Source of the DNA: Petrosia ficiformis
Lineage: Eukaryota > Porifera > Demospongiae > Haplosclerida > Petrosiidae
Direction: 5' to 3'
DNA length: 64,000 nt
Assembly: GCA_947044365.1 (NCBI GenBank)
Contig: OX345636.1
Location: forward strand, 42,849,537-42,913,536
In this document: one piece after another, positions 3,556 through 62,378 of the stretch
Layout: every line of letters begins with the position of its first letter
Numbering within the stretch: position 1 is the first letter of the stretch
Program-made: the position numbers and the translations under genes
The notes under the pieces: model-generated
What the model saw: the letters and a program-made list of their open reading frames with translations, nothing else
What the model was told of the DNA's origin: nothing
The model's database searches: none

Positions 3556-3990
3556 AGAGAGTACGGTAGTACTCTCTATGTAGGGATGGCACGGAAAAAA
3601 AATGGCCGCCCATACAATTTCAATTGCAAGTGATGAGCTGAAATCTCTGGTAATATATACAGATATGTTTTAATACACACATACCTATTCATATCTAGTG
3701 TTTTTATGACTACCAACACCTTCTAGATTACCAAAGATTGTCTTTAAGGTAGAGAACCGGCGAATAGCAAAACTGGCAAAATCTTCATATTATTATTATT
3801 TTTTTTATTTTTCAGACAAATCATTTTTTTGTTTGTTGAAATATCACAATGATTCTAGCACCATTCCAGTCGCATTTATAATAAAATTCTGGTCTACAAG
3901 TATCGAGATGATATCTACAGATACTATGAAAGAAGACAGTCTCAACGACCACAAAGAATTGATCTCGAATTGGACGCCATTTTGGTAGGT
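3556..3990 (-). mobile_element. Repeat family with terminal palindrome, copy 1
   Basis: About 430 bp are shared in reverse orientation with 14153-14576, and a fragment recurs at 17640-17722. One end is a near-perfect palindrome (AGAGAGTAC-ggta-GTACTCTCT) followed by ATGTAGGGATGGCA. The body contains GTAGAGAACCGGC and CTCAACGAC segments common to both long copies. It has no coding capacity and looks like a non-autonomous element. Confidence 0.6.
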
Positions 3991-4334: not shown

Positions 4335-4766
4335 TATATACAAAAGACTGACCTTCATTGATTAACAAACTTTAATGCATTTATGATTATATGATACATA
4401 ACCTACACCAGTATTTCTGCAATGTGCAAAATATATTCACACTATTCAAGAAAAAAAAACAATGGAAACAAGAATAATAAAAAACATTTTCAATAAAAAT
4501 GAAGGAAGATGTAGGGATGTCAAAACCCAAAAAGCATGCGAACAAGGTTAGATGGGACCCAAAATTAAACAAACCACTTCCATATAACCCTACATAAGTA
4601 CTTACACCACTATAAAGCAAAATACAAAGAGCTGTACTTATGTAGGGTTATATGGAAGTGGTTTGTTTAATTTTGGGTCCCATCTAACCTTGTTCGCATG
4701 CTTTTTGGGTTTTGACATCCCTACATCTTCTTTCATTTTTATTGAAAATGTTTTTATTATTCTTGT
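4125..4766. mobile_element. Foldback-type repeat, copy 1
   Basis: Arms of about 125 bp (about 4470-4596 and 4634-4766) are nearly perfect inverted copies around a spacer of about 37 bp. The element continues leftward to about 4125 in sequence shared, inverted, with 9420-9720. That extension includes a tract reading on the minus strand as an acceptor (ttacag) followed by coding-like sequence (MMPTISLTALSAVIQEVV). A (TA)n run interrupts it. Related copies lie at 9241-9720 and 59302-59490. Confidence 0.65.
4280..4332. repeat. (TA)n microsatellite
   Basis: Uninterrupted alternating TA of about 50 bp inside the foldback element. A similar run lies at about 5474-5509. Confidence 0.9.
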
Positions 4767-5242: not shown

Positions 5243-5364
5243 TTAGATATGTGCTTCTTCACTTTCATCAGGTGATTCTTTTTCTTGGTCTCCTTCTTCA
5301 AAGTCGTCCTCTTCTTCACTATCATTAACATCTGCAAGTTTCAGTGTCATACTGTGCACCGATC
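5243..5364 (-). CDS. Last exon: acidic cytoplasmic C-terminus and stop
   Basis: Acceptor atgtag, then 2 nt finishing a Gly codon, 39 codons and TAA at 5243-5245. The tail is highly acidic ([21 protein letters not shown] and onward to EEAHI). It has no kinase, PDZ-ligand or other signalling motif that I recognise. SDE-rich stretches could be casein-kinase-2 targets, which is inference only. The phase matches the upstream exon exactly. Confidence 0.75.
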
Positions 5365-5472
5365 CTACATATTCACAAAAAATGTCAATTAATATCATTA
5401 CTAGTATTGTCTAATGGAAGTTTTAATCAAAATTTAATACACTACAATATGTTTTAATGGTCCCAATTTGGC

Positions 5473-5514
<42 letters not shown>

Positions 5515-8500
5515 GATGGTGACATCATCCCTTTGTTGTGGTGAGTTCTATATATTGTATATAGGCCTTCTTTTTGTACACTATGCAGGAGATCTCACCA
5601 TCATACAATATATTGTATATAATAATATAGGACCTGAGTTTTGTGTCCGAGGATGTGATATAGCCGGAACCTGCGAGGGCTATATCACATCTGAGGACGC
5701 AAAACTGTTAGCATACTATATATACTATAAAACTGTTAGCATATTACATATATTATGTCTGCATTACACTAATGAATATAAAAATGTATAATCATGCTTT
5801 TTTATAAATTGATAATATTTATAAGAATATAGAAGTTTCATCTCTCATATATGGATGGTCAATGGTGTAATAATCTTCCTGTACCTTGAAGGCTAAGTTC
5901 TAATTGGTGCACATTTTCTAAACTGATATCAGATGTTTTCTTAGCGCTTTTCTTAATAAATGAGAATCGTCCATTCACGTGATGCATCCTATATAGATAT
6001 AATTTATATGCAAGAGATTTATTATTACAGACACGCACACACACAGACATACACACCCACACACCAGAGGCAATAGCCCACTAGCACACTAATAGTAACT
6101 AGTAGGAGTGTTCCTACTGATACTCCAATAGCAATTCCAGCAATCTGACCAACAGACAACACCTCATCATCCTCATCTTGTGGAGTAGGAAATGCTAACA
6201 TAATATTAGTGACTGTAAATCCAAAAACACCATCATCTCTCGCTTGCTACAATGTAAAGCATAATATTTATGATATTCTAGTGATCAATGCTTAAATAAT
6301 ATACAATGTAGAACATATTTCTATGTATTAATAATAATAGTTGCTATTATTATTACAAGTATCTCGTATTTAGCAGGGTAGTATGTAAGATTGTTGGCCA
6401 ACAATGTCAACAAACAGCATGTGGTATAACCACAGCAACCACAGTGCCTCATCTGCATCAAGATGTCATTCCTCAATCAACAGCCTTTACATGTTCATAG
6501 ACCAGTCCAAAAGTACTGGAAATTCCATGCTACAAAACAGATATAGTATACCTCTTCATGCACACATGGAATATAGCATTTGACACTGTGATGATGAAAG
6601 CATGTCATCAGTCACAGCACTAATACATGTATGTATGTATAATAGGTATGCTATTTCTATTATATATAAAACCAATAAAGTATGTAAGCAAGGTAAAGGA
6701 AGGTAATGTAGCAACAAATTTTAACTAACCATTTATATACGAACCTATTATAATCATTTACATAATAATTAAGCCTTTTGATATTTACTGTAATTATAAT
6801 AGCAGAAGTGTATCATTGAAAAAAACAAAGGATTGGAGTGTGCAACAAACTAAACAGCCATATATACACTAAAATAAAATTATATTGACCCACCCATAAT
6901 GTATAGTGATGCTGTGTCAGGTAAAAAAATTATGTGTACACTAACTGGATTTGTGGCTCTAAGTCTTGCTGTAATTCAAGGAGACCTTCTTGGAGTTAAG
7001 TTAAGACATCTTCACTTTTCTTAATATTTAACACATCAATATTATTCCAGCTCTGTTATGCTTTTTAAGGTTGTTGCCTTTTGAGTGGGAGGATGCTACT
7101 CCAATCAGTTTCTAGTTTTGCAAGCTTCTTGCTGTATTCTTTTGGAAGCCACACCCACTCGGGGGTATAATTATAGGGCCTAAATGTTTTCACTGGGGTG
7201 GTGGAGGGGGTCGTGGGTGGGAGACTCTGGCAGAGTAACTGTAGTTGCTCTCTGAGTAGATCGGAGTTTGATAATGCCTAAAAAGGTAAATTTTATGGTT
7301 TCACTCAAAAGCTACAGAATTCAGTGTTCACTTACAGGACAATACCCAGGTGATCAGAAGATATGAAGGTTGGTATTATACTAATATTATATTATATTGT
7401 ATTTTGAAACTGATTGGAGTTGCATCCGCCCACTCCCTATAGTACCACCTTAATTATTTACTGGAAGCTGCATGTTCTAACACTTAGTTTTTTCATTAAT
7501 GTGCTCCTGATTATAGCTACTTACATAATGATGAAACAAAAACAAGTAGTCCACCTTATAATGATATAAGCATTACAATACAGTTGCTTAAGTTACTTAA
7601 ATACATATTATCTGTAATCTACTAATTGAAGAGCTGACAGCCAGAGTGATCTAACTAAAAAACAGTACTATACTCTGGTTAACACTTCCAGAAGCAAAGA
7701 AAAATGTAAGAAATCACCATATTTCATAGTGGGTATATAAATGTTTTAATCCATTATTGTGTAACATGAACAATTTCCAGTATTTGATTCAGTTTCAGTT
7801 AGATCATGCAATTCTAACTTCTAAACCTTTCAAATATATTTACTTGTATAGCCTCCGCAACAGCTTGTGCATTTATCACTTCTCCATTCATTCTTATTAC
7901 AAAGAAGGTCACTTGAAGTCCATCAGTTGTATCTTCTATGTTAGTAATGATGATACCATTTGCTGACACAAATGTATCTTGTCTATATAGATAAAAGAGA
8001 AACATGTGTGTTAGGATAGATTCAGAAAGTGTTAGCATGACAATGTTGTAATTTTTTTCATAATAATTATGTAACATTTTTCACAGCTCACAGGGTCATT
8101 CCAAAGGTTTTTTCCATGGGTTCAAACTGTATGATATATAATGAAATGTTTGTTTCACGTATGCATTGTTTACACAGTTAAGGAAATTGCATCATTCTGA
8201 GAGGCTTGGTCAGTGTGGCATGTAAAATTAATGAATGTGTACTCAAGCATACTTTTTTCTTCATTTATCTTGCATGTCTATTATAATAGTCTATTTTTTA
8301 GGGCAATACTTTCCATAGAATTTCCTAAAGATCTATATCGCATACTGTATAATTGAAATTAAGAATTATTGTTTTAGGAATATGTACCAACTATTGAACT
8401 ATAAGTTAGGTTATTATTAATTACCCATGCATACCAACAGAAGTATATTGTTAGATTTCTTTCCATTGATTTTGTAGCTAGCTAGCTAATAAGTAAGATT

Positions 8501-14500: not shown

Positions 14501-17500
14501 GCAATTGAAATGTATAGGCGGCCATATTTTTCATGCCATCCCTACATAGAGAGTACTACCGTACTCTCTGTTATACATACATAGTCAATAATTATTAATA
14601 GAAGATATACCTTTTCAGTAAGTTTTGTTGATTATTTCTTTTTCTAAGTGAACTGGAATCATTATTAATTGTAACACATTTTTCAGGAGTTTCCCTACAA
14701 TTGATAGCCACTGCAGTTGCCATTGTGAAATTATCTTGTCTTTCCTTGAACTGAGTGAATCAATAGTAAATAAGTATGTATGTATATATGATTATAACTA
14801 AGATGTGAAAAGGGGTCCTTCGTTTTTAAATGCTTCAGATTAGCTGCTCTTTCAGATATCTTGTGTAATAAACCAACACAATTTGGGATATAGGTGGGGC
14901 TACAACTTGTCTTCAAAGATTGAAAGTTTAATTTGTTTTTCTAATAAGACATCTGAAAACAAGCAGTTGAAAAAATCATTTTAGAAAAATTAAAGAAGAA
15001 ATAAGACCTCTTTTCCTAGCTATGCATGATTATATGGAAGCTAGATAGGGCTAGATAGATTGATCAATAGATGGATTTATTATGAAAGGAAGTGTGAATA
15101 AAAAAAAACCATGTACATGAGCAGCAAAAAATGAAATAATAAACGTCACCATGTATGTTATTTGTGCAATAAACATTTTGTCAAACACTTATATTTAAAC
15201 TCTCACTATTCAGCCATTTTGTACAGGAAGATATCATTCTTCTTGGATACCAAATTTGGTTGATTGCCAATACAAAATGGCTGAATACCAAGTATGCATT
15301 AAGCTTGATAAAAAGTATTTTCCAAATGACTCATTTTCACATTTCATTCATAAAACTCACTGTTGATGTTGTTAAATTACTTAGTGTCACATTAAGACTA
15401 TTCTGACGTTCTACTTCAGAGATTGCTAGAGATGGTATAACCAGTGAATAAATAAATAGAGAATACTTATCAGAATAGTTGCAGGGTTTACAATCATAGT
15501 GGACTAACACAATAATCAACTACTGGAGTTTGTCTATATTGCGGAAAGATGCATTAAAAATTGGACATTATCAAATTTGAAATATTCTTAATTTTATCTG
15601 CTACTGAAACACATTTTGAAAGCGTCTTCATGTTAACCTGAGTATATTACTGTTTTCTGGGTTACTCCAATAAGGTTCTCAGTCCTTAAACTTATTAATG
15701 ATATATGTATTTGTATGCTGGGAATATAAACTCACAATGTTAAGGTTGGACAAATTATTATTATATACTTGCTTATTTTTCCACTCTTTTTAATTTTAAC
15801 AGTTCTTGTGTAAGTTTTGTATTGATAACAACTAGTCATTACAAGCTGATTTCATTCTGCTAGCTCCAGCATGTGTTCATATATGTGCCAGCTCAAGTCC
15901 TCTGGAATGCAACTACCCCACAATGCATACAATATACATGTATATGTGACATATAAACATATAAACAATTATATATAGATTTAACCACTGTGTATAAATA
16001 CATGTATTATACAAGTTGTGTCTGCATACCATTGCAAGTAATTCCATCAAAATCTAGCCAATAACTACTATTACATCCACAATAGAAGCTTCCATTAGTG
16101 TTTGTACAATTTTGAGAGCAATTGTGTGTTCCATCACTACACTCATTAGTATCTGAATGAAAAAAAATGCATACAATAGTTAATTACATTATCTTTATAC
16201 CCGGGGGTATAATTATTGGGCCTAAATGTTTTCTTTATAAAAATATGGAAATGATACAACTTTCATTATTTCAAGTGATAATGTTTTGACATAAATACTA
16301 AGTTAAAAAAAGACATCAAATAAATAACTCATTAATTATTCATGATTTGTATCCCGTAACCTTTAACTCCTTTGAGTAGGGATTTTAAATTATAAAGTAA
16401 TAACTCTGGCAAATAATGGCCATTTTTGGTTAGTTTCCTGAAAGTAACTTTGTTTAGTATGCCTAATTTTACTCTAGCTGATCAACTGTAACTATAACTA
16501 TGAGAAACTAGACATATACTACCAAAAGCGCATACATACATACGTACATGCGTACATACATGTATAACATTATTTCTTTACAGGAGAACTGCTTAAAAAT
16601 ACTAATAATGTATTTATGCTACAACTACTTTGCACATTACAATTGTGAGAAGAATAAGAACAAGATCAAGATATATTTTTATGAGTGCTTTCTTTCAGCA
16701 TGGTATGGTGTATGACATTCAGTAATCTGGCATGCATAGTTGACTTTCTAATGCCTGAAACACAACAGTGTATTAAAGTTATTAGTTTCATTATTACTCT
16801 ACTTACTTTTATAGATTGTAAAACATTAAGAATATATATCAACAGCTATTAGTTTCGGTTCCTACATAAGCTACAGGCAAGCAGTGAAGCAAGCAAGCAT
16901 TCTATTACCTGCCTCACCCATTAATTGTCTGAGCTTCTGGGAATGATGCAAATTCTCTAACTATGTACATGTATACAATGTAGTTGACAAAAACACATGC
17001 ATAGTTATAATATACATTAAACCCCATGGAAAGCAATAGTAGGGAAGGCCCTGTGGGTCATAAAACGAATGCATGTGAGATAAGGAATATAAGATCACAT
17101 CACAACACTTCCATTAAAATCTATAAACAACCATTTTTTAGCACATAGATCTAACATAGTGCATGTATCTATTTCCCTTTCACATACAATTACAAGAAAC
17201 TCCATCATTGTCCAGTATATAACCACTATAACATCCACAAATGAAGCTTCCATTAGTGTTTGTACATGTATCTGAGCAACCATCTATTCCTTCACTACAC
17301 TCATCAATATCTGGACAAAAACATAATTTTACGTATGTAGACAGGACTTCGTAATAATTTTATTGTGAGTTTGGAACATGCACGCTCTTGATCAGAATTA
17401 GTAGCTATGAATATCATTTTAAATATTAGTTGCTAATATGCACTTAGTATAATTTATAATTCATAGGTACATGTATGTAATAAACTTACCAGTAAAATTA

Positions 17501-50500: not shown

Positions 50501-53500
50501 AGCCATTTTTACATGCACAAGTGAAGCTTCCATTAGTGTTAGTACATATTTGAGAGCAATTGTGTGTTCCATTATTACACTCATCAATATCTGAATAGAA
50601 ACAGTTGTACATAATTATGCGTAATTGCATAGGAGTTTGTAATAATTATTATAATTATATAAACATACAATGTATAGCTGTATGTATGTATATGTTTTGT
50701 ACATACCATTACAAGTAACCTCATCAGTGTCTAGTTGATAGCCATTTTTACATCCACAAGTGAAGCTTCCATTAGTGTTAGTACATATTTGAGAGCAATT
50801 GTGTGTTCCATTATTACACTCATCAATATCTGAATAGAAACGGTTGTACATAATTATGCGTAATTGCATAGGAGTTTGTAATAATTATTATAATTATATA
50901 AACATACAATGTATAGCTATATGTATGTATATATTTTGTACATACCATTGCAAGTAACCTCATCAGTATCTAGTTGATAGCCGTTTTTACATCCACAAGT
51001 GAAGCTTCCATTAGTGTTAGTACATATTTGAGAGCAATTGTGTGTTCCATTATTACACTCATCAATATCTGAATAGAAACGGTTGTACATAATTATGCGT
51101 AATTGCATAGGAGTTTGTAATAATTATTATAATTATATAAACATACAATGTATAGCTATATGTATGTATATATTTTGTACATACCATTGCAAGTAACCTC
51201 ATCAGTGTCTAGTTGATAGCCGTTTTTACATCCACAAGTGAAGCTTCCATTAGTGTTAGTACATATTTGAGAGCAATTGTGTGTTCCATTATTACACTCA
51301 TCAACATCTGAAAAGAAACAGTTGTACATAATTATGTGTAATTATATACATGCATGTTTGTAATAATTATTATAATTATATAAACATACAATGTATAGTT
51401 GTATGCATGTATGTATATATTTTGTACATACCATTACAAGTAACCTCATCAGTGTCTAGTTGATAGCCGTTTTTACATCCACAAGTGAAGCTTCCATTAG
51501 TGTTAGTACATATTTGAGAGCAATTGTGTGTTCCATTATTACACTCATCAATATCTGAATAGAAACAGATGTACATAATTATGTGTAATTATATACATGC
51601 ATGTTTGTAATAATTATTATAATTATATAAACATACAATGTATAGCTGTATGTATGTATATGTTTTGTACATACCATTACAAGTAACCTCATCAGTGTCT
51701 AGTTTATAGCCGTTTTTACATCCACAAGTGAAGCTTCCATTAGTGTTAGTACATATTTGAGAGCAATTGTGTGTTCCATTATTACACTCATCAACATCTG
51801 AAAAGAAACAGTTGTACATAATTATGTGTAATTATATACATGCATGTTTGTAATAATTATTATAACTATATAAACATACAATGTATAGCTGTATGTATGT
51901 ATATGTTTTGTACATACCATTACAAGTAACCACATCAGTGTCTAGTTGATAGCCATTTCTACATCCACAAGTGAAGCTTCCATTAGTGTTAGTACATATT
52001 TGAGAGCAATTGTGAGTTTCATTATTACACTCATCAATATCTGAATAGAAACGGTTGTACATAATTATGCGTAATTGCATAGGAGTTTGTAATAATTATT
52101 ATAATTATATAAACATACAATGTATAGCTGTATGTATGTATGTATATATTTTGTACATACCATTACAAGTAATCTCATCAGTGTCTAGTTGATAGCCATT
52201 TTTACATCCACAAGTGAAGCTTCCATTAGTGTTAGTACATATTTGAGAGCAATTATGTGTTCCATTATTACACTCATCAATATCTGAATAGAAACGGTTG
52301 TACATAATTATGCGTAATTGCATAGGAGTTTGTAATAATTATTATAATTATATAAACATACAATGTATAGCTATATGTATGTATATATTTTGTACATACC
52401 ATTGCAAGTAACCTCATCAGTATCTAGTTGATAGCCGTTTTTACATCCACAAGTGAAGCTTCCATTAGTGTTAGTACATATTTGAGAGCAATTGTGTGTT
52501 CCATTATTACACTCATCAATATCTGAATAGAAACAGTTGTACATAATTATGCGTAATTGCATAGGAGTTTGTAATAATTATTATAATTATATAAACATAC
52601 AATGTATAGCTGTATGTATGTATATGTTTTGTACATACCATTACAAGTAACCTCATCAGTGTCTAGTTGATAGCCATTTTTACATCCACAAGTGAAGCTT
52701 CCATTAGTGTTAGTACATATTTGAGAGCAATTGTGTGTTCCATTATTACACTCATCAATATCTGAATAGAAACGGTTGTACATAATTATGCGTAATTGCA
52801 TAGGAGTTTGTAATAATTATTATAATTATATAAACATACAATGTATAGCTATATGTATGTATATATTTTGTACATACCATTGCAAGTAACCTCATCAGTA
52901 TCTAGTTGATAGCCGTTTTTACATCCACAAGTGAAGCTTCCATTAGTGTTAGTACATATTTGAGAGCAATTATGTGTTCCATTATTACACTCATCAATAT
53001 CTGAATAGAAACAGATTTACATAATTATGTGTAATTATATACATGCATGTTTGTAATAATTATTATAATTATATAAACATACAATGTATAGCTGTATGTA
53101 TGTATATGTTTTGTACATACCATTACAAGTAACCTCATCAGTGTCTAGTTGATAGCCATTTTTACATCCACAAGTGAAGCTTCCATTAGTGTTAGTACAT
53201 ATTTGAGAGCAATTGTGAGTTCCATTATTACACTCATCAATATCTGAATAGAAACGGTTGTACATAATTATGCGTAATTGCATAGGAGTTTGTAATAATT
53301 ATTATAATTATATAAACATACAATGTATAGCTGTATGTATGTATGTATATATTTTGTACATACCATTACAAGTAATCTCATCAGTGTCTAGTTGATAGCC
53401 ATTTTTACATCCACAAGTGAAGCTTCCATTAGTGTTAGTACATATTTGAGAGCAATTATGTGTTCCATTATTACACTCATCAATATCTGAATAGAAACAG

Positions 53501-56500
53501 ATTTACATAATTATGTGTAATTATATACATGCATGTTTGTAATAAACATACAATGTATAGCTGTATGTATGTATCTATATATTTTGTACATACCATTACA
53601 AGTAACCTCATCAGTGTCTAGTTGATAGCCATTTTTACACCCACAAGTGAAGCTTCCATTAGTGTTAGTACATATTTGAGAGCAATTGTGAGTTCCATTA
53701 TTACACTCATCAATATCTGAATAGAAACAGTTGTACATAATTATGCGTAATTGCATAGGAGTTTGTAATAATTATTATAATTATATAAACATACAATGTA
53801 TAGCTGTATGTATGTATATGTTTTGTACATACCATTACAAGTAACCTCATCAGTGTCTAGTTGATAGCCATTTTTACATCCACAAGTGAAGCTTCCATTA
53901 GTGTTTGTACATATTTGAGAGCAATTGTGTGTTCCATTATTACACTCATCAATATCTGAATAGAAACAGATTTACATAATTATGTGTAATTATATACAGG
54001 CATGTTTGTAATAATTATTATAATTATATAAACATACAATGTATAGCTATATGTATGTATATATTTTGTACATACCATTGCAAGTAACCTCATCAGTGTC
54101 TAGTTGATAGCCGTTTTTACATCCACAAGTGAAGCTTCCATTAGTGTTAGTACATATTTGAGAGCAATTGTGTGTTCCATTATTACACTCATCAATATCT
54201 GAATAGAAACAGTTGTACATAATTATGCGTAATTGCATAGGAGTTTGTAATAATTATTATAATTATATAAACATACAATGTATAGCTGTATGTATGTATA
54301 TGTTTTGTACATACCATTACAAGTAACCTCATCAGTGTCTAGTTGATAGCCATTTTTACATCCACAAGTGAAGCTTCCATTAGTGTTAGTACATATTTGA
54401 GAGCAATTGTGTGTTCCATTATTACACTCATCAATATCTGAATAGAAACGGTTGTACATAATTATGCGTAATTGCATAGGAGTTTGTAATAATTATTATA
54501 ATTATATAAACATACAATGTATAGCTATATGTATGTATATATTTTGTACATACCATTGCAAGTAACCTCATCAGTATCTAGTTGATAGCCGTTTTTACAT
54601 CCACAAGTGAAGCTTCCATTAGTGTTAGTACATATTTGAGAGCAATTGTGTGTTCCATTATTACACTCATCAATATCTGAATAGAAACGGTTGTACATAA
54701 TTATGCGTAATTGCATAGGAGTTTGTAATAATTATTATAATTATATAAACATACAATGTATAGCTATATGTATGTATATATTTTGTACATACCATTGCAA
54801 GTAACCTCATCAGTGTCTAGTTGATAGCCATTTCTACATCCACAAGTGAAGCTTCCATTAGTGTTAGTACATATTTGAGAGCAATTGTGAGTTCCATTAT
54901 TACACTCATCAATATCTGAATAGAAACAGTTGTACATAATTATGCGTAATTGCATAGGAGTTTGTAATAATTATTATAATTATATAAACATACAATGTAT
55001 AGCTGTATGTATGTATATGTTTTGTACATACCATTACAAGTAACCTCATCAGTGTCTAGTTGATAGCCATTTTTACATTCACAAGTGAAGCTTCCATTAG
55101 TGTTAGTACATATTTGAGAGCAATTGTGTGTTCCATTATTACACTCATCAATATCTGAATAGAAACGGTTGTACATAATTATGCGTAATTGCATAGGAGT
55201 TTGTAATAATTATTATAATTATATAAACATAGCTATATGTATGTATATATTTTGTACATACCATTGCAAGTAACCTCATCAGTGTCTAGTTGATAGCTGT
55301 TTTTACATCCACAAGTGAAGCTTCCATTAGTGTTAGTACATATTTGAGAGCAATTGTGTGTTCCATTATTACACTCATCAACATCTGAAAAGAAACAGTT
55401 GTACATAATTATGTGTAATTATATACATGCATGTTTGTAATAATTATTATAATTATATAAACATACAATGTATAGTTGTATGTATGTATGTATATATTTT
55501 GTACATACCATTACAAGTAACCTCATCAGTGTCTAGTTGATAGCCGTTTTTACATCCACAAGTGAAGCTTCCATTAGTGTTAGTACATATTTGAGAGCAA
55601 TTGTGTGTTCCATTATTACACTCATCAACATCTGAAAAGAAACAGTTGTACATAATTATGTGTAATTATATACATGCATGTTTGTAATAATTATTATAAT
55701 TATATAAACATACAATGTATAGTTGTATGTATGTATGTATATATTTTGTACATACCATTACAAGTAACCTCATCAGTGTCTAGTTGATAGCCGTTTTTAC
55801 ATCCACAAGTGAAGCTTCCATTAGTGTTAGTACATATTTGAGAGCAATTGTGTGTTCCATTATTACACTCATCAATATCTGAATAGAAACGGTTGTACAT
55901 AATTATGCGTAATTGCATAGGAGTTTGTAATAATTATTATAATTAGATAAACATACAATGTATAGCTATATGTATGTATATATTTTGTACATACCATTGC
56001 AAGTAACCTCATCAGTATCTAGTTGATAGCCGTTTTTACATCCACAAGTGAAGCTTCCATTAGTGTTAGTACATATTTGAGAGCAATTGTGAGTTCCATT
56101 ATTACACTCATCAATATCTGAATAGAAACGGTTGTACATAATTATGCGTAATTGCATAGGAGTTTGTAATAATTATTATAATTATATAAACATAGCTATA
56201 TGTATGTATATATTTTGTACATACCATTACAAGTAACCTCATCAGTGTCTAGTTGATAGCCGTTTTTACATCCACAAGTGAAGCTTCCATTAGTGTTAGT
56301 ACATATTTGAGAGCAATTGTGTGTTCCATTATTACACTCATCAACATCTGAAAAGAAACAGTTGTACATAATTATGTGTAATTATATACATGCATGTTTG
56401 TAATAATTATTATAATTATATAAACATACAATGTATAGTTGTATGTATGTATGTATATATTTTGTACATACCATTACAAGTAACCTCATCAGTGTCTAGT

Positions 56501-59500
56501 TGATAGCCGTTTTTACATCCACAAGTGAAGCTTCCATTAGTGTTAGTACATATTTGAGAGCAATTGTGTGTTCCATTATTACACTCATCAATATCTGAAT
56601 AGAAACGGTTGTACATAATTATGCGTAATTGCATAGGAGTTTGTAATAATTATTATAATTAGATAAACATACAATGTATAGCTATATGTATGTATATATT
56701 TTGTACATACCATTGCAAGTAACCTCATCAGTATCTAGTTGATAGCCGTTTTTACATCCACAAGTGAAGCTTCCATTAGTGTTAGTACATATTTGAGAGC
56801 AATTGTGAGTTCCATTATTACACTCATCAATATCTGAATAGAAACGGTTGTACATAATTATGCGTAATTGCATAGGAGTTTGTAATAATTATTATAATTA
56901 TATAAACATAGCTATATGTATGTATATATTTTGTACATACCATTGCAAGTAACCTCATCAGTGTCTAGTTGATAGCCGTTTTTACATCCACAAGTGAAGC
57001 TTCCATTAGTGTTAGTACATATTTGAGAGCAATTGTGTGTTCCATTATTACACTCATCAACATCTGAAAAGAAACAGTTGTACATAATTATGTGTAATTA
57101 TATACATGCATGTTTGTAATAATTATTATAATTATATAAACATACAATGTATAGTTGTATGTATGTATGTATATATTTTGTACATACCATTACAAGTAAC
57201 CTCATCAGTGTCTAGTTGATAGCCGTTTTTACATCCACAAGTGAAGCTTCCATTAGTGTTAGTACATATTTGAGAGCAATTGTGTGTTCCATTATTACAC
57301 TCATCAATATCTGAATAGAAACAGTTGTACATAATTATGCGTAATTGCATAGGAGTTTGTAATAATTATTATAATTATATAAACATACAATGTATAGCTG
57401 TGTGTATGTATATGTTTTGTACATACCATTACAAGTAACCTCATCAGTGTCTAGTTGATAGCCGTTTTTACATCCACAAGTGAAGCTTCCATTAGTGTTA
57501 GTACATATTTGAGAGCAATTGTGTGTTCCATTATTGCACTCATCAATATCTGAAAGAAACAGATTTACATAATTATGTGTAATTATATACATGCATGTTT
57601 GTAATAATTATTATAATTATATAAACATATAATGTATAGCTGTATGTATGTATGTATATATTTTGTACATACCATTACAAGTAACCTCATCAGTGTCTAG
57701 TTGATAGCCATTTTTACATCCACAAGTGAAGCTTCCATTAGTGTTAGTACATATTTGAGAGCAATTGTGTGTTCCATTATTACACTCATCAATATCTGAA
57801 TAGAAACGGTTGTACATAATTATGCGTAATTGCATAGGAGTTTGTAATAATTATTATAATTATATAAACATACAATGTATAGCTATATGTATGTATATAT
57901 TTTGTACATACCATTGCAAGTAACCTCATCAGTATCTAGTTGATAGCCGTTTTTACATCCACAAGTGAAGCTTCCATTAGTGTTAGTACATATTTGAGAG
58001 CAATTGTGTGTTCCATTATTACACTCATCAATATCTGAATAGAAACGGTTGTACATAATTATGCGTAATTGCATAGGAGTTTGTAATAATTATTATAATT
58101 ATATAAACATAGCTATATGTATGTATATATTTTGTACATACCATTGCAAGTAACCTCATCAGTGTCTAGTTGATAGCCGTTTTTACATCCACAAGTGAAG
58201 CTTCCATTAGTGTTAGTACATATTTGAGAGCAATTGTGTGTTCCATTGTTACACTCATCAATATCTGAATAGAAACAGATGTACATAATTATGTGTAATT
58301 ATATACATGCATGTTTGTAATAATTATTATAATTATATAAACATACAATGTATAGCTGTATGTATGTATATGTTTTGTACATACCATTACAAGTAACCTC
58401 ATCAGTGTCTAGTTGATAGCCATTTCTACATCCACAAGTGAAGCTTCCATTAGTGTTAGTACATATTTGAGAGCAATTGTGAGTTCCATTATTACACTCA
58501 TCAATATCTGAATAGAAACGGTTGTACATAATTATGCGTAATTGCATAGGAGTTTGTAATAATTATTATAATTATATAAACATACAATGTATAGCTGTGT
58601 GTATGTATATGTTTTGTACATACCATTACAAGTAACCTCATCAGTGTCTAGTTGATAGCCGTTTTTACATCCACAAGTGAAGCTTCCATTAGTGTTAGTA
58701 CATATTTGAGAGCAATTGTGTGTTCCATTATTACACTCATCAATATCTGAAAGAAACAGATTTACATAATTATGTGTAATTATATACATGCATGTTTGTA
58801 ATAATTATTATAATTATATAAACATATAATGTATAGCTGTATGTATGTATGTATATATTTTGTACATACCATTACAAGTAACCTCATCAGTGTCTAGTTG
58901 ATAGCCATTTTTACATCCACAAGTGAAGCTTCCATTAGTGTTAGTACATATTTGAGAGCAATTGTGTGTTTCATTATTACACTCATCAATATCTGAATAG
59001 AAACGGTTGTACATAATTATGCGTAATTGCATAGGAGTTTGTAATAATTATTATAATTATATAAACATACAATGTATAGCTGTATGTATGTATATGTTTT
59101 GTACATACCATTACAAGTAACCTCATCAGTGTCTAGTTGATAGCCATTTTTACATCCACAAGTGAAGCTTCCATTAGTGTTTTTACATTTTTGAGAGCAA
59201 TTGTGTGTTCCATTATTACACTCATCAATATCTGAATAGAAACAGATGTACATAATTATGTATAATTATATACATGCATGTTTGTAATAATTATTATAAT
59301 TACAAGAATAATAAAAACATTTCCAATAAAAATGAAAGAAGATGTAGGGATGTCAAAACCCAAAAAGCATACGAACAAGGTTAGATGGGACCCAAAATTA
59401 AACAAACCACTTCCATATAACCCTACATAAGTACAGCTCTTTGTATTTTTCTTTATAGTGGTGTAAGTACTTATGTAGGGTTATATGACTAATTGTTGTA

Positions 59501-62378
59501 ATCAAATTATGCTTTCCATTTTATAAACATTCTAAATAAAATATCAATTTAATTTTGATATGCAAATGTAGGTTCACATATGTGCCATGTAGTTGAATGT
59601 TACTAATATCATTTGTAACATATGAAAGTGACTCGGTGACATTTATAAAACTGTTTAATTATACTGAAACATACCATTACATGATATTCCATCTTCATCC
59701 AAAAAATAACCATCATTACATGAACAGAATAAACCTTCCGGAGAGAAGTTACATAGCTGAGTACAGTTGGAACACTCATCACCAGCTATTGAGAGAGGGT
59801 ATTAAGTATAATATATATAGTACAGTTTTATGTGTGTGTGTGTGATTGTCTGAATCTTTCTAGGTACCATTAAATACTGTATCATTGCATAAATAGAATT
59901 GTTAAAATAAAAAAATTATTGGCCAGCAAATTTGTAAGAATGCAAATTATAATTTAATTGGTCATACAGGTTGTTATTATGACTGCATGATAAAAGATAC
60001 TTATACTATAATCAATTATCATATCCAATATCTCATATTACATGCGCAAAGAATGTGTGGAAACCTAAAATAATTTAATTAAAATGTTATTCTGCTTCTT
60101 TGTACATCTAATAGTAAGTATAAGGATAATTGAAATTACAAATTATAGTTACCTGTACATCACCACTACAATTTGCACTATTACATGAAAATCAGTTTAA
60201 GGAGTTGGGAAATATTTCAGAATAAAACAAATTCCCTTTTTCATAGTGCGGTAAATTCAACTTTTACCCATTATTGTGCAATATGGACTAGTTGATTTTT
60301 TTTGTTAGACAAATCTGGCTCTCAACTTTTATGTTTAATGCATCTCGTGTATACCGTTACAAGTAGCTCCATCAGCATCCAGTAAATATCCATTATTACA
60401 TTATTTTTGCAGTGTAAAACATTTGGTTGCATGATAACAGGGGTGCCCAATTACAGAGACAAAAATTACTGATAATTACACTTGAGGTTTATAATTATGT
60501 TATTGACAGTACTAGGAAGACTACTTTCTCTCATGATTATGTCACAGCAGTTTCTTCTTTACAATTTAGATGTATTCATTTACCAATTTGCCCCAAAGAG
60601 CACATGAAGTTTACAATAAAAAGTATGCTCGTCATGAAAATCAATATAATTATTGCTGTAAAAATTTAATAGTATGCTTTGTGTATCTATTTATCTCATT
60701 AGGCACAATTTATAATTTCCTGGGTGTGCCCCTGGTTGCATGAATTTGTCACTGTAAAAGAACAAAATTGTTTGGTTATTGCATATACAGTTACAAAGAT
60801 TTAATGTTGTATTGTCATGCTGTTCATGCTATAACATTTACTTGAAGTCCTTTTTTATTATCCTTCCCATATAATATTTCATGTCACTTATGAAACGTAA
60901 AAGTAACTGGCCATCAATCAACAAAATTAATGGTTGAAATGTTTTGTAAAACTCGCAACTGCATTATTTAATTTACCAAGAAACACCACAAAAGATTGTT
61001 CCTATAGTTATTTGGCAACAAAGGCAACTATATGATATCAGCAATCATGTATGCACAACCAGCATCTTAACAATAAATTATTTGAATTCACACTATACTT
61101 TGCAACTGTATACTTACCAATGAATGAGTTATTTTAAAAGTTTTGTTATTGCAGTGTAACCGCTCACTGTTGTATCAGACTACATGGTTTCCTTAACAGT
61201 CATTTTTACATAACTTATTAGTGAGAGAGGTAGCTACTGGCTAAAATAAACTGTGAGTACCATGGTATCCAAGTTGTCAGATATATTATATGAGTTAGTA
61301 ATTACTATCAATAAATGTAAGTGATCATTGTAAATAACAACACTATAGCCTGTTACCATGTTGTTACTGTGTGTTGTATTTAGAATATTGGAAGTTATAG
61401 AGCAGTTTATAACTTCCTAGTTTCCTGGCTGTAAGTATGCTAATAGCTTCCACATGCAGTTAATATCACATTGGGTGTAAATTGAATGCTCACTCTATTT
61501 TACTGATGCTTAGTCTATTTTACTGAAAATATAATTCTTTGCACTCAGATGTAGACATTCTGCCCTCACAATTTTATTTTAGCAATAGACCATGAGCACA
61601 TCCTATAACTATAACTTCTAACATCAATTTAAATGTTCAGGAAACAAACTAACCTGAATTGCTCTTTGACATTTGAATGTATTTGAAAATGTAATAGTCA
61701 TAAATATAAGATACTAGTAATTCAATGCTATTGTAATCATTGATAATGAGGTATATAAACATCTGATGGATTGAAAACATGTAGTGTGCAAAAGACTAAA
61801 GTTTGTAATGACACAAAATTAATCAGTACCATATTAATTTTAGTAATATAACTGTTAAATTTATTATGTTATGAGTAAAATATTATAGTAACTGTTAGTA
61901 ATAGTTTAATCAATAACTAAATAATCTCTGATAAAATTGAATAGTACTCTCATACATTTACTTACGTGGAGGACAGATTTGTGGAGCATCAGAACAGCAA
62001 TCGTTTAGCTGATAACAATGTGTATCGCAATAGCAATCCCCGACCTGGCAAGTAGATAGACGACTATATATACAGCAATCAGTATAATTAGCAGTGCAGG
62101 AACCTGTATGAAGTATTGTATACTACAATTTCACATGACAAATGAATTATGTAAAGAAATGCATTGAAATAGCAGACATATAGGCAAGAGTAAATCTATA
62201 TGCCTAATCTTAAATAGTGTGCAACAATATATTCCATTATAAGTACATACATTATGTGATCAAAGTGTTATTAACCTTGAGCTGAAATCACAGGGAACTC
62301 AAGATACAACAACAGTATCATAAAAGGTAGGAAACGATACAACAGTATCATAAAGGGTAGGAAACATTTGGAATTCAT
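5243..62378 (-). CDS. Giant multi-exon transmembrane protein: signal peptide, SMB-like, about 160 cbEGF, juxtamembrane region, TM, acidic tail
   Basis: Hand-built spliced model on the minus strand. Exons in transcript order: 62378-62276, 62103-61966, 59785-59675, about 157 array exons of 123 bp (first 59231-59109, last 21776-21654), 19898-19776, 17310-17188, 16152-16030, 15425-15361, 14750-14611, 7982-7844, 6246-6065, 5988-5885, 5364-5243. All introns start GT and end AG. Phases run 1 through the EGF exons and then 0,2,0,2,1, and every junction fits, so the total is a multiple of three (about 6,900 codons). The cbEGF repeats carry DIDEC, six cysteines and the Asn-hydroxylation pattern. Tandem cbEGF domains form Ca2+-stiffened rods in fibrillins and Notch, so I infer a very long cell-surface stalk, perhaps for adhesion or matrix contact. 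One array exon has a stop (24513-24635). No orthologue is named because none could be searched. Confidence 0.8.
5365..5884. other. Last intron of the giant gene
   Basis: 520-bp intron holding a (TA)n run (about 5474-5509), nested inverted repeats (ATGATGGTGA near 5513 against TCACCATCAT near 5595) and the strong hairpin at 5638-5705. Probably a small MITE insertion. Confidence 0.5.
5638..5705. repeat. Strong hairpin, 28-bp stem and 12-nt loop
   Basis: The arms GTTTTGTGTCCGAGGATGTG... and ...CACATCTGAGGACGCAAAAC pair over about 28 bp with two or three mismatches. The GC content of the arms stands out from the AT-rich intron. It is either a MITE core or an RNA hairpin in the pre-mRNA. Confidence 0.65.
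5885..5988 (-). CDS. Penultimate exon: basic cytoplasmic membrane-proximal segment
   Basis: Acceptor tatatag and donor GTACAG. One base completes the Trp codon begun in the TM exon, followed by [17 protein letters not shown] and then [17 protein letters not shown]. The Lys-rich stretch just after the membrane fits the positive-inside rule. If the donor is not used, the frame stops about nine codons later (TGRLLHH then stop), giving a shorter tail lacking the acidic segment. Confidence 0.7.
6065..6246 (-). CDS. Transmembrane exon
   Basis: 182 bp with acceptor attgtag and donor GTGTGTGG, a weak donor lying in a TG-rich run. It encodes an extracellular piece ([19 protein letters not shown]), an acidic linker (TPQDEDDEV), and then a single hydrophobic helix of about 23-25 residues beginning [18 protein letters not shown] and ending near VLVGYCLW. 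Small-residue spacing (G-x-A-x-G and G-x-x-x-G type) could support helix packing. This is the only membrane span seen after the signal peptide, so topology is type I. Confidence 0.75.
6247..7843. other. Intron between juxtamembrane and TM exons
   Basis: About 1.6 kb. It contains the MITE at 7083-7440 and otherwise featureless AT-rich sequence. A short motif 'cgggggtataattat(a/t)gggcctaaatgtttt' at 7158-7192 recurs at 16201-16232, suggesting a dispersed repeat. Confidence 0.5.
7083..7440. mobile_element. MITE with about 30-bp terminal inverted repeats
   Basis: GAGTGGGAGGATGCTACTCC-AATCAGTTT at about 7084-7114 is inverted at about 7404-7438 (AAACTGATTGGAGTTGCATCC...CCCACTCCC). The interior is about 290 bp, G-rich in part, with no transposase. 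The superfamily is unknown. Confidence 0.55.
7844..7982 (-). CDS. Juxtamembrane-domain exon 3
   Basis: 139 bp with acceptor tatatag and donor GTAAATA. It completes an Arg codon from the previous exon, then [39 protein letters not shown] and AVAEAIQ. Alternating hydrophobic residues suggest beta strands followed by a helix, as in SEA-like or other ferredoxin-fold juxtamembrane domains. That resemblance is only by pattern and I cannot assign a family. Confidence 0.7.
7983..8570. other. Part of the 6.6-kb intron, nothing recognised
   Basis: Intronic AT-rich sequence upstream (plus sense) of the gene remnant at 8571. No coding or repeat feature was supported. Confidence 0.45.
8571..9240 (+). pseudogene. 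Two-exon fragment of an unidentified gene, truncated by a foldback element
   Basis: Acceptor attatag before 8571, donor AAAG|GTGAGC after 8784, acceptor ttttacag before 8860. Exon 1 holds two copies of a 20-residue acidic motif: [12 protein letters not shown] at about 8630 and [11 protein letters not shown] at about 8718. They lie in different frames, so a frameshift separates them, although an ATG at 8651 could start the second frame. Both resemble SUMO-interaction motifs (hydrophobic core plus Ser/Asp/Glu). Exon 2 continues with [38 protein letters not shown] and [17 protein letters not shown], then runs into the repeat at about 9241. It is not recognised and may be a multicopy family also represented at 1194-1935. 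Confidence 0.5.
9241..9720. mobile_element. Foldback-family repeat, copy 2
   Basis: Begins AACCCTACATAAGTACTTA and includes the full right-arm sequence (GTGGTTTGTTTAATTTTGGG, TTTTTGGGTTTTGACATCC). It then extends through sequence inverted relative to 4125-4470, including the cttTACAG|ATGATG tract at about 9590-9700. The 5' edge cuts into the gene remnant at 8571-9240. Only a short piece of the opposite arm is present. Confidence 0.6.
9819..9836. promoter_or_regulatory. NRF-1-like palindrome in the LINE 5' region
   Basis: AATTGCGCATGCGCAATT is a perfect 18-bp palindrome containing the NRF-1 consensus TGCGCATGCGCA. About 45 bp downstream, at 9877-9886, AACATGGCGA resembles a YY1 site. Both precede the LINE reading frame and may be its internal promoter (inference). 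Confidence 0.5.
9961..14038 (+). pseudogene. LINE polyprotein: APE endonuclease and reverse transcriptase, two frameshifts
   Basis: The frame opens at ATG 9961, with a second ATG at 10018 that better fits a hydrophilic N-terminus. The N-terminal ~280 residues hold a coiled-coil-like stretch. An AP-endonuclease domain runs about residues 280-520, with [28 protein letters not shown] and LSDHLPV. The reverse transcriptase begins about residue 745 ([28 protein letters not shown]). A one-base shift near 12590 moves it to the frame with [21 protein letters not shown] and AHADDLRT (catalytic ADD motif). A second shift near 13226 leads to the last segment ([11 protein letters not shown]) ending at 14038, which has a CPLC...H....H zinc-finger-like motif. 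The shifts mean it cannot make the whole enzyme. Confidence 0.8.
14153..14576 (+). mobile_element. Terminal-palindrome repeat family, copy 2
   Basis: Inverted relative to 3556-3990 with the same order of shared blocks: CTCAACGAC/GTCGTTGAG, GCCGGTTCTCTACCTTA, TAGAAGGTGTTGATAGTCAT, and TGCCATCCCTACATAGAGAG ending in the palindrome AGAGAGTACTACCGTACTCTCT at about 14551-14572. It abuts the LINE 3' end and lies just downstream of a coding exon. Confidence 0.6.
14611..14750 (-). CDS. Juxtamembrane-domain exon 2 with dibasic site
   Basis: 140 bp with acceptor actcag and donor GTATATC. It encodes [17 protein letters not shown], then [14 protein letters not shown], then [15 protein letters not shown]. 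Two cysteines probably pair with each other. RKR followed by a polar stretch is a possible proprotein-convertase cleavage site, though the strict R-x-K/R-R form is not met. Phase 0 in and phase 2 out match both neighbours. Confidence 0.7.
14751..15360. other. Intron of the giant gene
   Basis: 610-bp AT-rich intron. A short inverted pair (ATTCAGCCATTTTGTA near 15209 against TACAAAATGGCTGAAT near 15270) suggests a small hairpin or MITE remnant. No coding sequence was seen. Confidence 0.5.
15361..15425 (-). CDS. Juxtamembrane-domain exon 1
   Basis: 65 bp with acceptor tctctag and donor GTGAGT. It follows the last EGF exon in phase 1 and reads [20 protein letters not shown] then ST. It has two N-glycosylation sequons (NVT, NLT). 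Phase 0 out fits the next exon. Confidence 0.65.
15426..16029. other. Intron, nothing recognised
   Basis: 604-bp AT-rich intron without a supported feature. Confidence 0.45.
16030..16152 (-). CDS. Membrane-proximal cbEGF exon, divergent
   Basis: 123 bp, phase 1-1, acceptor attcag and donor GTATGC. It has six cysteines: [15 protein letters not shown], then [20 protein letters not shown], then GITCN. The junction codon is Tyr instead of the usual Asp, so the first calcium ligand of the D-x-D/N-E motif is missing. The hydroxylation motif C-x-N-x4-F-x-C-x-C is intact. It is closest to the membrane and among the most diverged of the set. Confidence 0.8.
16153..17187. other. Intron between divergent cbEGF exons
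   Basis: About 1.0 kb. It contains a CATA/CGTA-type microsatellite near 16530-16570 and the short shared motif at 16201-16232 also seen near 7160. Nothing else was supported. Confidence 0.5.
17188..17310 (-). CDS. cbEGF exon, divergent
   Basis: 123 bp, phase 1-1. It reads [41 protein letters not shown]. Calcium-binding and Asn-hydroxylation motifs are intact. It lacks two of the three sequons typical of the array units. It ends AATT before the donor, which makes the Tyr codon at the next junction. Confidence 0.8.
17311..17639. other. Intron, nothing recognised
   Basis: Start of the 2.5-kb intron between the 17.2-kb and 19.8-kb exons. AT-rich with no feature supported until the repeat fragment at 17640. 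Confidence 0.45.
17640..17722 (+). mobile_element. Terminal-palindrome family, end fragment
   Basis: TTGGAATTGAAATGCATGGA, CATGCCATCCCTACATAGAG and the palindrome AGAGAGTGCTACCGTGCTCTCT match the end of the copies at 3556 and 14576. The internal part is missing. Confidence 0.6.
17874..17945 (+). mobile_element. tRNA-derived SINE-like head
   Basis: TGGCTCTAAATGG at 17878-17890 resembles a pol III A box. AGTTGGGGTCC at 17927-17937 resembles a B box about 37 bp later, and GTGCCTGACTAGATATCTGA lies between them as in tRNA-related SINEs. The acceptor-stem pairing and the tail were not established. The 109-bp tandem units start within this head. Confidence 0.4.
17912..18533 (+). repeat. 109-bp minisatellite, five full units plus a partial one
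   Basis: Units starting CTGAAGTTCCTGCCTAGTTG lie at 17912, 18021, 18130, 18239, 18348 and 18457 (partial). They are nearly identical and differ at only a few bases, such as GTAGGAAC against GTGGGAAC, so the expansion is recent. Each unit contains the B-box-like part of the SINE head. Confidence 0.9.
18540..19550 (+). pseudogene. Ty3/gypsy-type retrotransposon integrase remnant
   Basis: In shifting frames the plus strand shows a zinc-binding CEKCQ piece, the integrase core ([34 protein letters not shown] with the D, D and E positions present), then an open stretch at 19077-19550. That stretch holds a C-terminal domain ([35 protein letters not shown]) and ends [14 protein letters not shown]. 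The core is broken by frameshifts, and gag, protease and reverse transcriptase are absent. It is a truncated, inactive copy with its 5' end next to the minisatellite. Confidence 0.7.
19559..19690 (+). repeat. Candidate short 3' LTR with polypurine tract
   Basis: A purine tract AAAAAGGGAG lies just after the integrase stop, followed by TGTGGTAACTATGACATC and sequence ending ATGGTACA. This gives TG...CA ends over about 132 bp. Ordinary array-intron sequence resumes straight afterwards. There is no second LTR to compare, so the boundary is tentative. Confidence 0.4.
19776..19898 (-). CDS. cbEGF exon separated from the main array
   Basis: 123 bp, phase 1-1. It is array-like: [41 protein letters not shown]. 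Flanking intron sequence is the array type, so this unit was part of the array before the insertions at 18.5-19.7 kb and 19.96-21.6 kb split it off. Confidence 0.85.
19955..20776 (+). mobile_element. Helitron-like non-autonomous element, copy 1
   Basis: The array-intron sequence GTAATAA is interrupted by TCTATATAATAACACCGTTG (TC start after an A), a form common at Helitron 5' ends. The interior is rich in AGACATAGACAAAGAC-type degenerate repeats and AGCCCAACTAACATCTGATA. Near the far end ACCGC-TGAAG-GCGGT forms a hairpin followed by CTAA, as CTRR ends do, though the hairpin is closer to the end than usual. No Rep/helicase is present. Confidence 0.4.
20785..21590 (+). mobile_element. Helitron-like non-autonomous element, copy 2
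   Basis: ACCGTTGTCTGTCTGTCTGT at about 20791 restarts the same order of blocks as copy 1: ACGTTGACGTG, GGAGGCGTTAACAG, AGAAGCCCAGCTAACATCTG, and ATTATAGTACATTCATTTGT near 21535. The copy is diverged. Its end was not located exactly, and array-type intron resumes by about 21615. Confidence 0.4.
24513..24635 (-). pseudogene. Array exon with in-frame stop and weak acceptor
   Basis: In this unit the Tyr31 codon TAT is TAA (plus-strand TTA at 24544-24546), and the acceptor is CTATTGAG instead of CTATTCAG. GAG is a poor 3' splice site. The rest of the exon is intact. Inclusion would end translation after about 144 array repeats, before the membrane exon. Skipping keeps frame because the exon is phase 1-1. 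It could be a dead exon tolerated by skipping, a switch for a soluble form, or a sequencing error. Confidence 0.75.
30910..36685 (-). repeat. Higher-order block A within the array
   Basis: Marker units repeat in the same order in block B (36919-41489). The markers are an extra GTACATGTAT intron insertion (unit near 31.5 kb), a D37 variant (32.4 kb), S29 variants (31.0, 33.4 kb), a CTTTGT intron variant (33.8 kb) and A26 units (34.6 kb). The offset is 6009 bp up to about 34.7 kb and 4804 bp after that. The 1205-bp difference is a local five-unit tandem duplication present only here (33788-34993 repeated at 34993-36200). Confidence 0.75.
36919..41489 (-). repeat. Higher-order block B within the array
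   Basis: Partner of block A, about 4.6-4.8 kb or about 20 units long. It carries the marker units at 37.5, 38.4, 39.4, 39.85 and 40.6 kb in matching order and spacing. Confidence 0.75.
46053..47973 (-). repeat. Higher-order block C, partner at 51832-53756
   Basis: Marker units (NETHNCS with CRNGYQ and DVVTC; then DEITC with an extra GTAT; then CKNGYQ with codon GTT-type changes; then a short intron with ATCTATATAT) recur 5779-5783 bp further on. This implies a duplication spanning about 24 units. Confidence 0.7.
51832..53756 (-). repeat. Higher-order block C', partner of 46053-47973
   Basis: Same marker units in the same order as block C at an offset of 5779-5783 bp. The intervening units differ, so later local gains and losses followed. 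Confidence 0.7.
55700..57350 (-). repeat. Three-unit (716-bp) tandem block
   Basis: A trio of units with a distinctive shortened intron (AAACATAGCTATATG, lacking ACAATGTAT) and a GTATAGTTGTATG variant repeats at 716-bp spacing near 55.7, 56.4 and 57.1 kb. Confidence 0.75.
59302..59490. mobile_element. Foldback-family repeat, copy 3, at the upstream edge of the array
   Basis: Array-intron sequence (ATAATTATTATAATTA) runs directly into CAAGAATAATAAAAACATTT and the left arm of the foldback family. The arm ends AACCCTACATAAGTACAG, followed by a short spacer and ACTTATGTAGGGTTATATGA. The second arm is truncated. The array stops exactly at this insertion. Confidence 0.65.
59675..59785 (-). CDS. 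First EGF exon, divergent
   Basis: 111 bp, phase 1-1, acceptor caatag and donor GTATGT. It reads [37 protein letters not shown]. It has six cysteines but a shorter first loop and no D-x-D-E start, so calcium binding is probably weaker. It links the SMB-like exon to the array. Confidence 0.75.
59925..60150. mobile_element. MITE copy related to 63380-63675
   Basis: Shares TTTAATTGGT...GGTTGTTATTATGACTGCATG, TATAATCAATTATC and the AATTATCCTTATACT-type segments with 63380-63675, partly in inverted order. It is a non-autonomous element without coding sequence. Confidence 0.45.
60355..60402 (-). pseudogene. Truncated EGF exon remnant
   Basis: Minus strand reads [15 protein letters not shown] followed by a donor-like GTATAC, matching the C-terminal third of an EGF exon. 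An in-frame TAA lies just upstream and the first four cysteines are gone. The hAT-like insertion lies about 35 bp away. Confidence 0.65.
60438..60734. mobile_element. hAT-like MITE
   Basis: Starts CAGGGGTGCCCAATTA and ends AATTTCCTGGGTGTGCCCCTG, which are hAT-type inverted ends. GTTGCATGA occurs at 60426-60434 (3 nt before the left end) and at 60735-60743, a likely target duplication of about 8-9 bp. About 297 bp with no transposase. Confidence 0.6.
61966..62103 (-). CDS. Somatomedin-B-like exon
   Basis: 138 bp, phase 1-1, acceptor catacag and donor GTAAGT. It encodes [18 protein letters not shown], then [18 protein letters not shown], then SDAPQICPP. The C-x-C-x3-C-x5-CC-x6-C half is the classic SMB arrangement. 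Ten cysteines instead of eight make it a variant. SMB domains mediate protein-protein contacts in vitronectin and ENPP proteins. Here it would sit at the far tip of the stalk. Confidence 0.75.
62276..62378 (-). CDS. Start exon: signal peptide
   Basis: ATG at 62376-62378 followed by [34 protein letters not shown], then the donor GTTAAT in phase 1. It is hydrophobic with a small-residue end (ISA), as expected of a signal peptide, though long because of an internal 10-codon tandem duplication. The pyrimidine-rich tract and CAG immediately before the ATG look like an acceptor, so an upstream 5' UTR exon is likely. Confidence 0.7.

Follow-up and report, generated by a model that had tools for sequence, protein, structure and literature searches.

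Do the many EGF-like exons of this locus belong to a single gene, and if so, what kind of protein would it encode? We analysed a window of 64,000 bases on chromosome 1 of Petrosia ficiformis (C1:42849537-42913536), in which the gene lies on the minus strand. The genome searched comprises 191,215,263 bases in 29 contigs; the assembly odPetFici3.1 is published as 191,273,811 bp in 35 scaffolds, and the RNA run for the species is ERR10378034 (PMC12648040). The initial annotation described one complete gene, from an ATG at 62378 to a TAA ending at 5243, with every junction closing in frame. Both codons are present, and 169 exons with compatible phases connect them over about 57,000 bases (Table 1). 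They encode, in order, a predicted signal peptide, a domain resembling SMB, an EGF domain, 160 cbEGF domains (123 bp each) and, in six tail exons, one predicted transmembrane (TM) helix and an acidic tail. The start motif of cbEGF domains is absent from all three plus frames, whereas the minus frames contain it 50, 58 and 51 times. The claim on the junctions fails at one place: exon 148 is interrupted by an in-frame TAA, and without skipping of this exon the frame would not extend to 5243. The model lacking exon 148 has 6,886 residues (742 kDa), 974 cysteines and 485 N-glycosylation sequons (2.99 per unit), and its two hydropathy zones are the signal and a single TM segment at residues 6780-6816. 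It is thus likely that this is one gene, with 169 phase-matched exons, whose predicted product is a single-pass protein of about 6,886 residues with a rod of some 159 near-identical cbEGF domains. The unity of the gene, the order of its domains and the TM helix with its acidic tail had all been proposed at the outset; they are backed by the exon phases and by a complete sister gene of 28 units with an identical head and tail layout. The proposed count of about 160 cbEGF domains is further backed by the 160 units matched at the DNA level.

Table 1. Exons of the predicted gene, in window coordinates.
Feature	Position	Strand	Description
Exon 1	62276..62378	-	Start codon (ATG) and predicted signal peptide; phase 1 at its end
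Exon 2	61966..62103	-	SMB-like domain, 10 Cys
Exon 3	59675..59785	-	EGF domain without calcium-binding start
Exons 4-160	21654..59231	-	157 cbEGF exons (123 bp, phase 1-1) repeated in tandem every 239 bp
Exon 148	24513..24635	-	Broken unit, in-frame TAT to TAA at 24546, GAG acceptor; predicted to be skipped
Exon 161	19776..19898	-	cbEGF
Exon 162	17188..17310	-	cbEGF
Exon 163	16030..16152	-	Last EGF; first calcium ligand Tyr, not Asp
Exon 164	15361..15425	-	Juxtamembrane linker with sequons
Exon 165	14611..14750	-	First part of juxtamembrane module, Cys pair and RKR
Exon 166	7844..7982	-	Second part of juxtamembrane module
Exon 167	6065..6246	-	End of juxtamembrane module and single TM helix
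Exon 168	5885..5988	-	Basic cytoplasmic start
Exon 169	5243..5364	-	Acidic tail, ends EEAHI-TAA

The window also contains elements that are not part of this model. A non-LTR retrotransposon-like element occupies 9961-14038 on the plus strand, antisense to the gene and within the intron that separates exons 165 and 166. Its matches to reverse transcriptase (PF00078, E=2.9e-20) and endonuclease (PF03372, E=1.1e-16) fall in different ORFs, both of them broken. There is a 109-bp tandem repeat of 5.7 copies at 17912-18535 and, on the plus strand at 19077-19550, an ORF of 157 residues that looks retroelement-like by eye and has no Pfam match. Two short repeats, also noticed by eye, have the look of small DNA transposons: one around ctctatgtagggatggca, near 3590, 14560 and 17680, and one around ataaccctacataagta, near 4600, 9300 and 59400.

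The cbEGF units are strikingly uniform. All 160 units matched at the DNA level are gap-free and without indels, and 159 combine an AG acceptor, a GT donor, an open frame and six cysteines. We searched for calcium ligands with the pattern (D/N)x(D/N)(E/Q)..(D/N)..(Y/F) together with six cysteines, following the published consensus (PMC3306419), and found it in its strict form in 158 of the 159 units left when exon 148 is skipped. In exon 163 a T at the preceding donor-side base turns the first ligand from Asp into Tyr. A linker of one residue (C6-x-D) joins units at 158 places, each unit has a Gly-Tyr motif, and the cbEGF domains of the head and tail exceed the Pfam cut-off for EGF_CA. TRF delimits a 239-bp tandem array of 157.1 copies at 21593-59302, beyond which lie the three cbEGF units of exons 161 to 163. 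The 156 introns of the array fall into ten length classes, while the exons show no indels. Of its 156 units of exon plus intron, 92 are distinct. No exact repeat within the array is longer than 2,260 bp, which is less than the mean HiFi read of about 10.5 kb (89.01 Gb divided by 8.46 million reads; PMC12648040). Hence, reads should span the repeats of the array, and its copy number is probably sound.

The gene had been presented as standing alone, a view that the genome searches do not support, as it belongs to a large local family. With the tail as query, 122 candidates were scored and 100 matches obtained; the TM exon was matched at 39 places including the window (C1 at 38.4-43.0 and 52.1 Mb, and C14). 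The query with SMB and EGF gave at least 122 matches, with 150 of 1,013 candidates scored. Another large group of EGF_CA exons lies on a different chromosome (C7:2993629-3250120). Three relatives on C1 were compared with the window. The first (g28, C1:42640084-42664634) is the complete sister gene with 28 cbEGF units, all intact; its model of 1,515 residues has no internal stop, and its nine head and tail exons are 97-100% identical to those of the window. In the second (g115, C1:43038217-43100867), exons for SMB, EGF and the tail are accompanied by 117 DNA units. Of these, 116 lie between head and tail (114 intact), and one is upstream of the SMB exon. No signal exon was recognised within the g115 stretch searched; its TM exon has an altered beginning, where an alternative acceptor is in frame. 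The third (g80, C1:42787000-42816999) has 80 DNA units within this stretch, 77 of them intact. Units differ little within their own array (means of 0.034, 0.059, 0.070 and 0.048 in the four arrays), against a mean of 0.170 between the window and g115, and for 32 of the 160 window units the nearest neighbour is in g80. This pattern is concerted evolution that includes exchange between genes. The same process is reported for the internal PIGSFEAST repeats of Dumpy in Drosophila, probably by unequal crossing over (PMC2930355, PMC8520396, PMC10597583). Relatives with 28 and 116 copies point to the number of repeated exons as what determines how long the stalk is.

Is the whole array included in the transcript? 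The gene may mainly produce shorter isoforms, with skipping among 159 symmetrical, near-identical exons leading to stalks of varied length. All array exons have 123 bp, phase 1-1 and nearly identical splice sites, such that any skipping preserves the frame, and broken units with a GAG acceptor suggest that skipping occurs. We nevertheless regard mainly short products as unlikely, given that the splice sites look consistently usable: acceptors in the 157-unit array are TTCAG in 154 cases, TTAAG in two and TTGAG in one (exon 148), and the donor is GGTATGT in 156 of 157.

A more specific question concerns exon 148, whose acceptor is the only GAG among the 160 units of the window. If the exon were included, the product would end at residue 6,051 as an anchorless secreted rod, or the message would be degraded. 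The AG dinucleotide and the GT donor are still there, which would allow inclusion. Yet, across the four arrays the 381 coding-intact units have CAG (375), AAG (4), TAG (1) or GCA (1) as acceptor and never GAG, whereas GAG precedes two of the three coding-broken units (Fisher exact test, p=4e-5). The third broken unit has CAG: it is a frameshifted unit of the neighbouring array g80 (L052, C1:42792001). The tail exons downstream also stay in frame in both g28 and g115. Inclusion is therefore quite unlikely, and because of the stop a transcript retaining exon 148 was not adopted as our principal model. The exon is symmetrical, so its removal preserves the frame, and it is probably skipped, since it combines an in-frame stop with a poor GAG acceptor of a type absent from intact units. 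More generally, units seem to lose coding integrity where the acceptor is spoilt, as skipping predicts. This link between acceptors and integrity also speaks, indirectly, for splicing of the array one unit at a time.

The head of the gene is less clear-cut than its array. The label SMB-like reflects a match below threshold: exon 2 aligns with PF01033 (E=0.011, profile positions 16-38 of 40) at 16.5 bits against a curated cut-off of 23.1, and a genome scan with PF01033 gave five matches, none of them within the window. The exon is 100% identical to its counterpart in g28 and 92.8% to that in g115. Exon 3 matches the EGF domain of C1r among PDB sequences (E=0.0004). Exon 1 has a hydropathy peak of 2.19 over 19 residues, as a signal peptide might, and a 30-bp tandem duplication is visible within it (window 62309-62365). 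An in-frame stop is found 11 codons upstream of its ATG. The initial annotation took the 5' start as certain, which goes too far, as the ATG directly follows an acceptor-like CAG and another head lies outside the window. This upstream head (L067, C1:42919105-42915432) is on the same strand and consists of SMB, EGF and two cbEGF exons. It may be a short gene or a remnant, or it could be spliced to exon 2 or beyond, in which case the ATG at 62378 would be an alternative start. Its splice sites permit phase 1, and no tail exon was recognised between it and exon 1, nor in C1:42913400-42919800. This longer 5' end is nonetheless improbable: exon 1 read as an internal phase-1 exon runs into a stop, and the same signal exon recurs before SMB at five of nine other loci. 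Counting the window itself, a homologous signal exon keeps its frame at six of the ten SMB loci examined, being 30 or 33 bp shorter, in frame, at L032, L033, L036 and L042.

We then asked whether the array evolves as coding sequence. In so young an array, open frames carry little weight on their own: among its 40 variant states, about 1.5 nonsense states are expected by chance and one is seen. Substitution patterns are partly those of a coding sequence. All five distinct changes in Cys codons are synonymous (chance about 1e-4), synonymous states make up 16 of the 40 variant states where 22.6% would be expected (binomial p=0.010), and the 56 distinct exon types of the window give pS=0.112 and pN=0.031. 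The exon types are related by duplication, and these variant counts are not independent. Other patterns are neutral or point the other way. The share of variable columns is similar in exons (35/123) and introns (42/137), and introns of the window and g28 are 92-100% identical, which is near the identity of the exons and speaks against the coding model. A comparison of the array consensus of the window with that of g115 gives a dN of 0.179, no lower than the dS of 0.148; for eight non-array exons dN/dS is 0.042/0.065, which is neutral or unfavourable. The evidence for selection is therefore mixed. A non-expressed or decaying expansion, maintained by tandem duplication alone, would fit a young homogenised array with one nonsense unit and a dN not below dS between arrays, but we consider it very unlikely because units are intact in 28/28, 108/108 and 159/160 cases in three arrays that differ by up to 17%, and because broken units are tied to bad acceptors.

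Which known proteins does the predicted product resemble? It had been stated that no described receptor has this layout. For the exact layout this agrees with our literature searches, which covered papers outside subscription and retrieved no described sponge protein of the kind. The statement is too broad in that Dumpy, which has been described, is anchored in the membrane and has over 300 EGF domains. Dumpy is also giant, with a mainly EGF ectodomain, a TM segment and a cytoplasmic end (PMC2930355, PMC8520396, PMC10597583), and the predicted 6,886-residue product shares with it a giant EGF ectodomain anchored by a TM helix. Dumpy differs by its EGF-DPY-EGF triads, its ZP domain and calcium-binding EGFs that are only an N-terminal share, whereas the sponge gene combines a nearly uniform array of cbEGF domains with an SMB-like head and gave no match to ZP. 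Fibrillin-1 is likewise dominated by cbEGF domains (43 of them) with the same ligand consensus (PMC5639267, PMC3306419). It is however secreted and has TB and hybrid domains, the former being the hallmark of the fibrillin superfamily (PMC5639267), while the sponge model has a predicted TM helix and neither domain was found in it. In particular, TB (PF00683) gave no match in the head and tail pieces at E<=1, and all 160 array and tail units translate as EGF units. We could thus rule out fibrillin, for which no TB domain was found, and Dumpy itself, for which no ZP domain was found next to the TM helix. The protein is neither of the two, yet it is of the general kind that Dumpy represents.

The tail offers fewer comparisons. 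The peak of the TM helix (2.51, in exon 167) is the only hydropathy peak of at least 1.6 besides the signal, and the last 40 residues contain 16 D/E and two K/R. Classification of the juxtamembrane module as SEA or ZP was rejected, with no Pfam family at E<=10, and against PDB nothing was better than E=0.74 (a catalase). Searches for tail homologues gave none at E<=0.001 among 1,878 candidates of 833-2,651 residues, and none at E<=1 among 1,373 candidates with the 496-residue query. The head-plus-EGF search gave 1,252 cbEGF proteins, 120 of them listed; these are not shown to be relatives of the SMB head, as the EGF part drives the matches. One sponge membrane protein, P0112 (Em0010g757a, whose prefix we take to stand for Ephydatia muelleri), shares cbEGF repeats and a TM helix. 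It has only 1,698 residues and, by eye, about nine cbEGFs, with a middle that is presumably NIDO/AMOP/VWD-like from its look. Its juxtamembrane region aligns with the family profile with an hhalign probability of 65.7% and a score of 31.3, where the best of 60 shuffles reached 18.9. The comparison of single sequences fell short of significance (134 of 2,000 shuffles scored at least as high; BLASTP E=7.7), and hmmsearch of the juxtamembrane profile against the 120 listed cbEGF proteins did not recover P0112 at E<=10. The likeness is thus suggestive, and comes from the profile comparison only.

The gene likely encodes a giant cell-surface stalk. From its outer end inwards, the mature chain would carry the SMB-like head, one EGF domain, the array, the juxtamembrane module, the TM helix and the acidic tail, the predicted signal preceding them all. 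Calcium would fill the site of each unit, as the ligand consensus implies, and together with the Gly-Tyr motif it would stiffen the chain, while about three N-glycans per unit would coat the rod. At 2.7-3 nm per cbEGF domain, the head could be held far from the membrane, roughly 430-480 nm if the rod is straight and less if it is compacted. Studies of other cbEGF proteins are the basis for this picture of a calcium-stiffened, glycan-coated and anchored stalk. The Gly-Tyr motif lies in the loop at which Gly-aromatic motifs are described to pack against the next domain (PMC3906135), and calcium keeps pairs of fibrillin cbEGF domains extended and stiff, with simulations in which its binding drops under load (PMC7545174). 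In solution, fibrillin cbEGF arrays are somewhat compacted rather than linear (PMC5639267). Unequal exchange could lengthen or shorten the rod with the frame unbroken because every unit is a symmetrical 1-1 exon, a model consistent with the 28 and 116 units of the sister genes.

The most likely role for such a protein is that of a cell-surface spacer or tether in the glycocalyx. The mesh of the choanocyte collar is an attractive candidate place for it. In a glass sponge this mesh is bilayered with pores of 20 x 70 nm, and a paper on the sponge pump describes it as a secreted protein product whose composition and determinant of mesh size are unknown (PMC3236749). One may go further and propose that the membrane-anchored, densely N-glycosylated and calcium-stiffened rods of the tandem family (28 to 160 exons) would themselves be protein strands of the sponge glycocalyx, such as this 20 x 70 nm mesh. 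Rod length would then follow directly from exon copy number, retuned by unequal exchange, in a mesh on the collar microvilli that filters food. We regard this extension as a long shot.

If transcribed as modelled, the gene would place a giant membrane-anchored EGF protein in an animal phylum distant from flies, and its nearly uniform array would hold 3.7 times as many cbEGF domains as fibrillin-1. Its family would span array lengths from 28 to 160 across near-identical genes, a natural series for how the number of cbEGF domains sets the length and stiffness of a rod. It would also provide a concrete candidate for the sponge glycocalyx.
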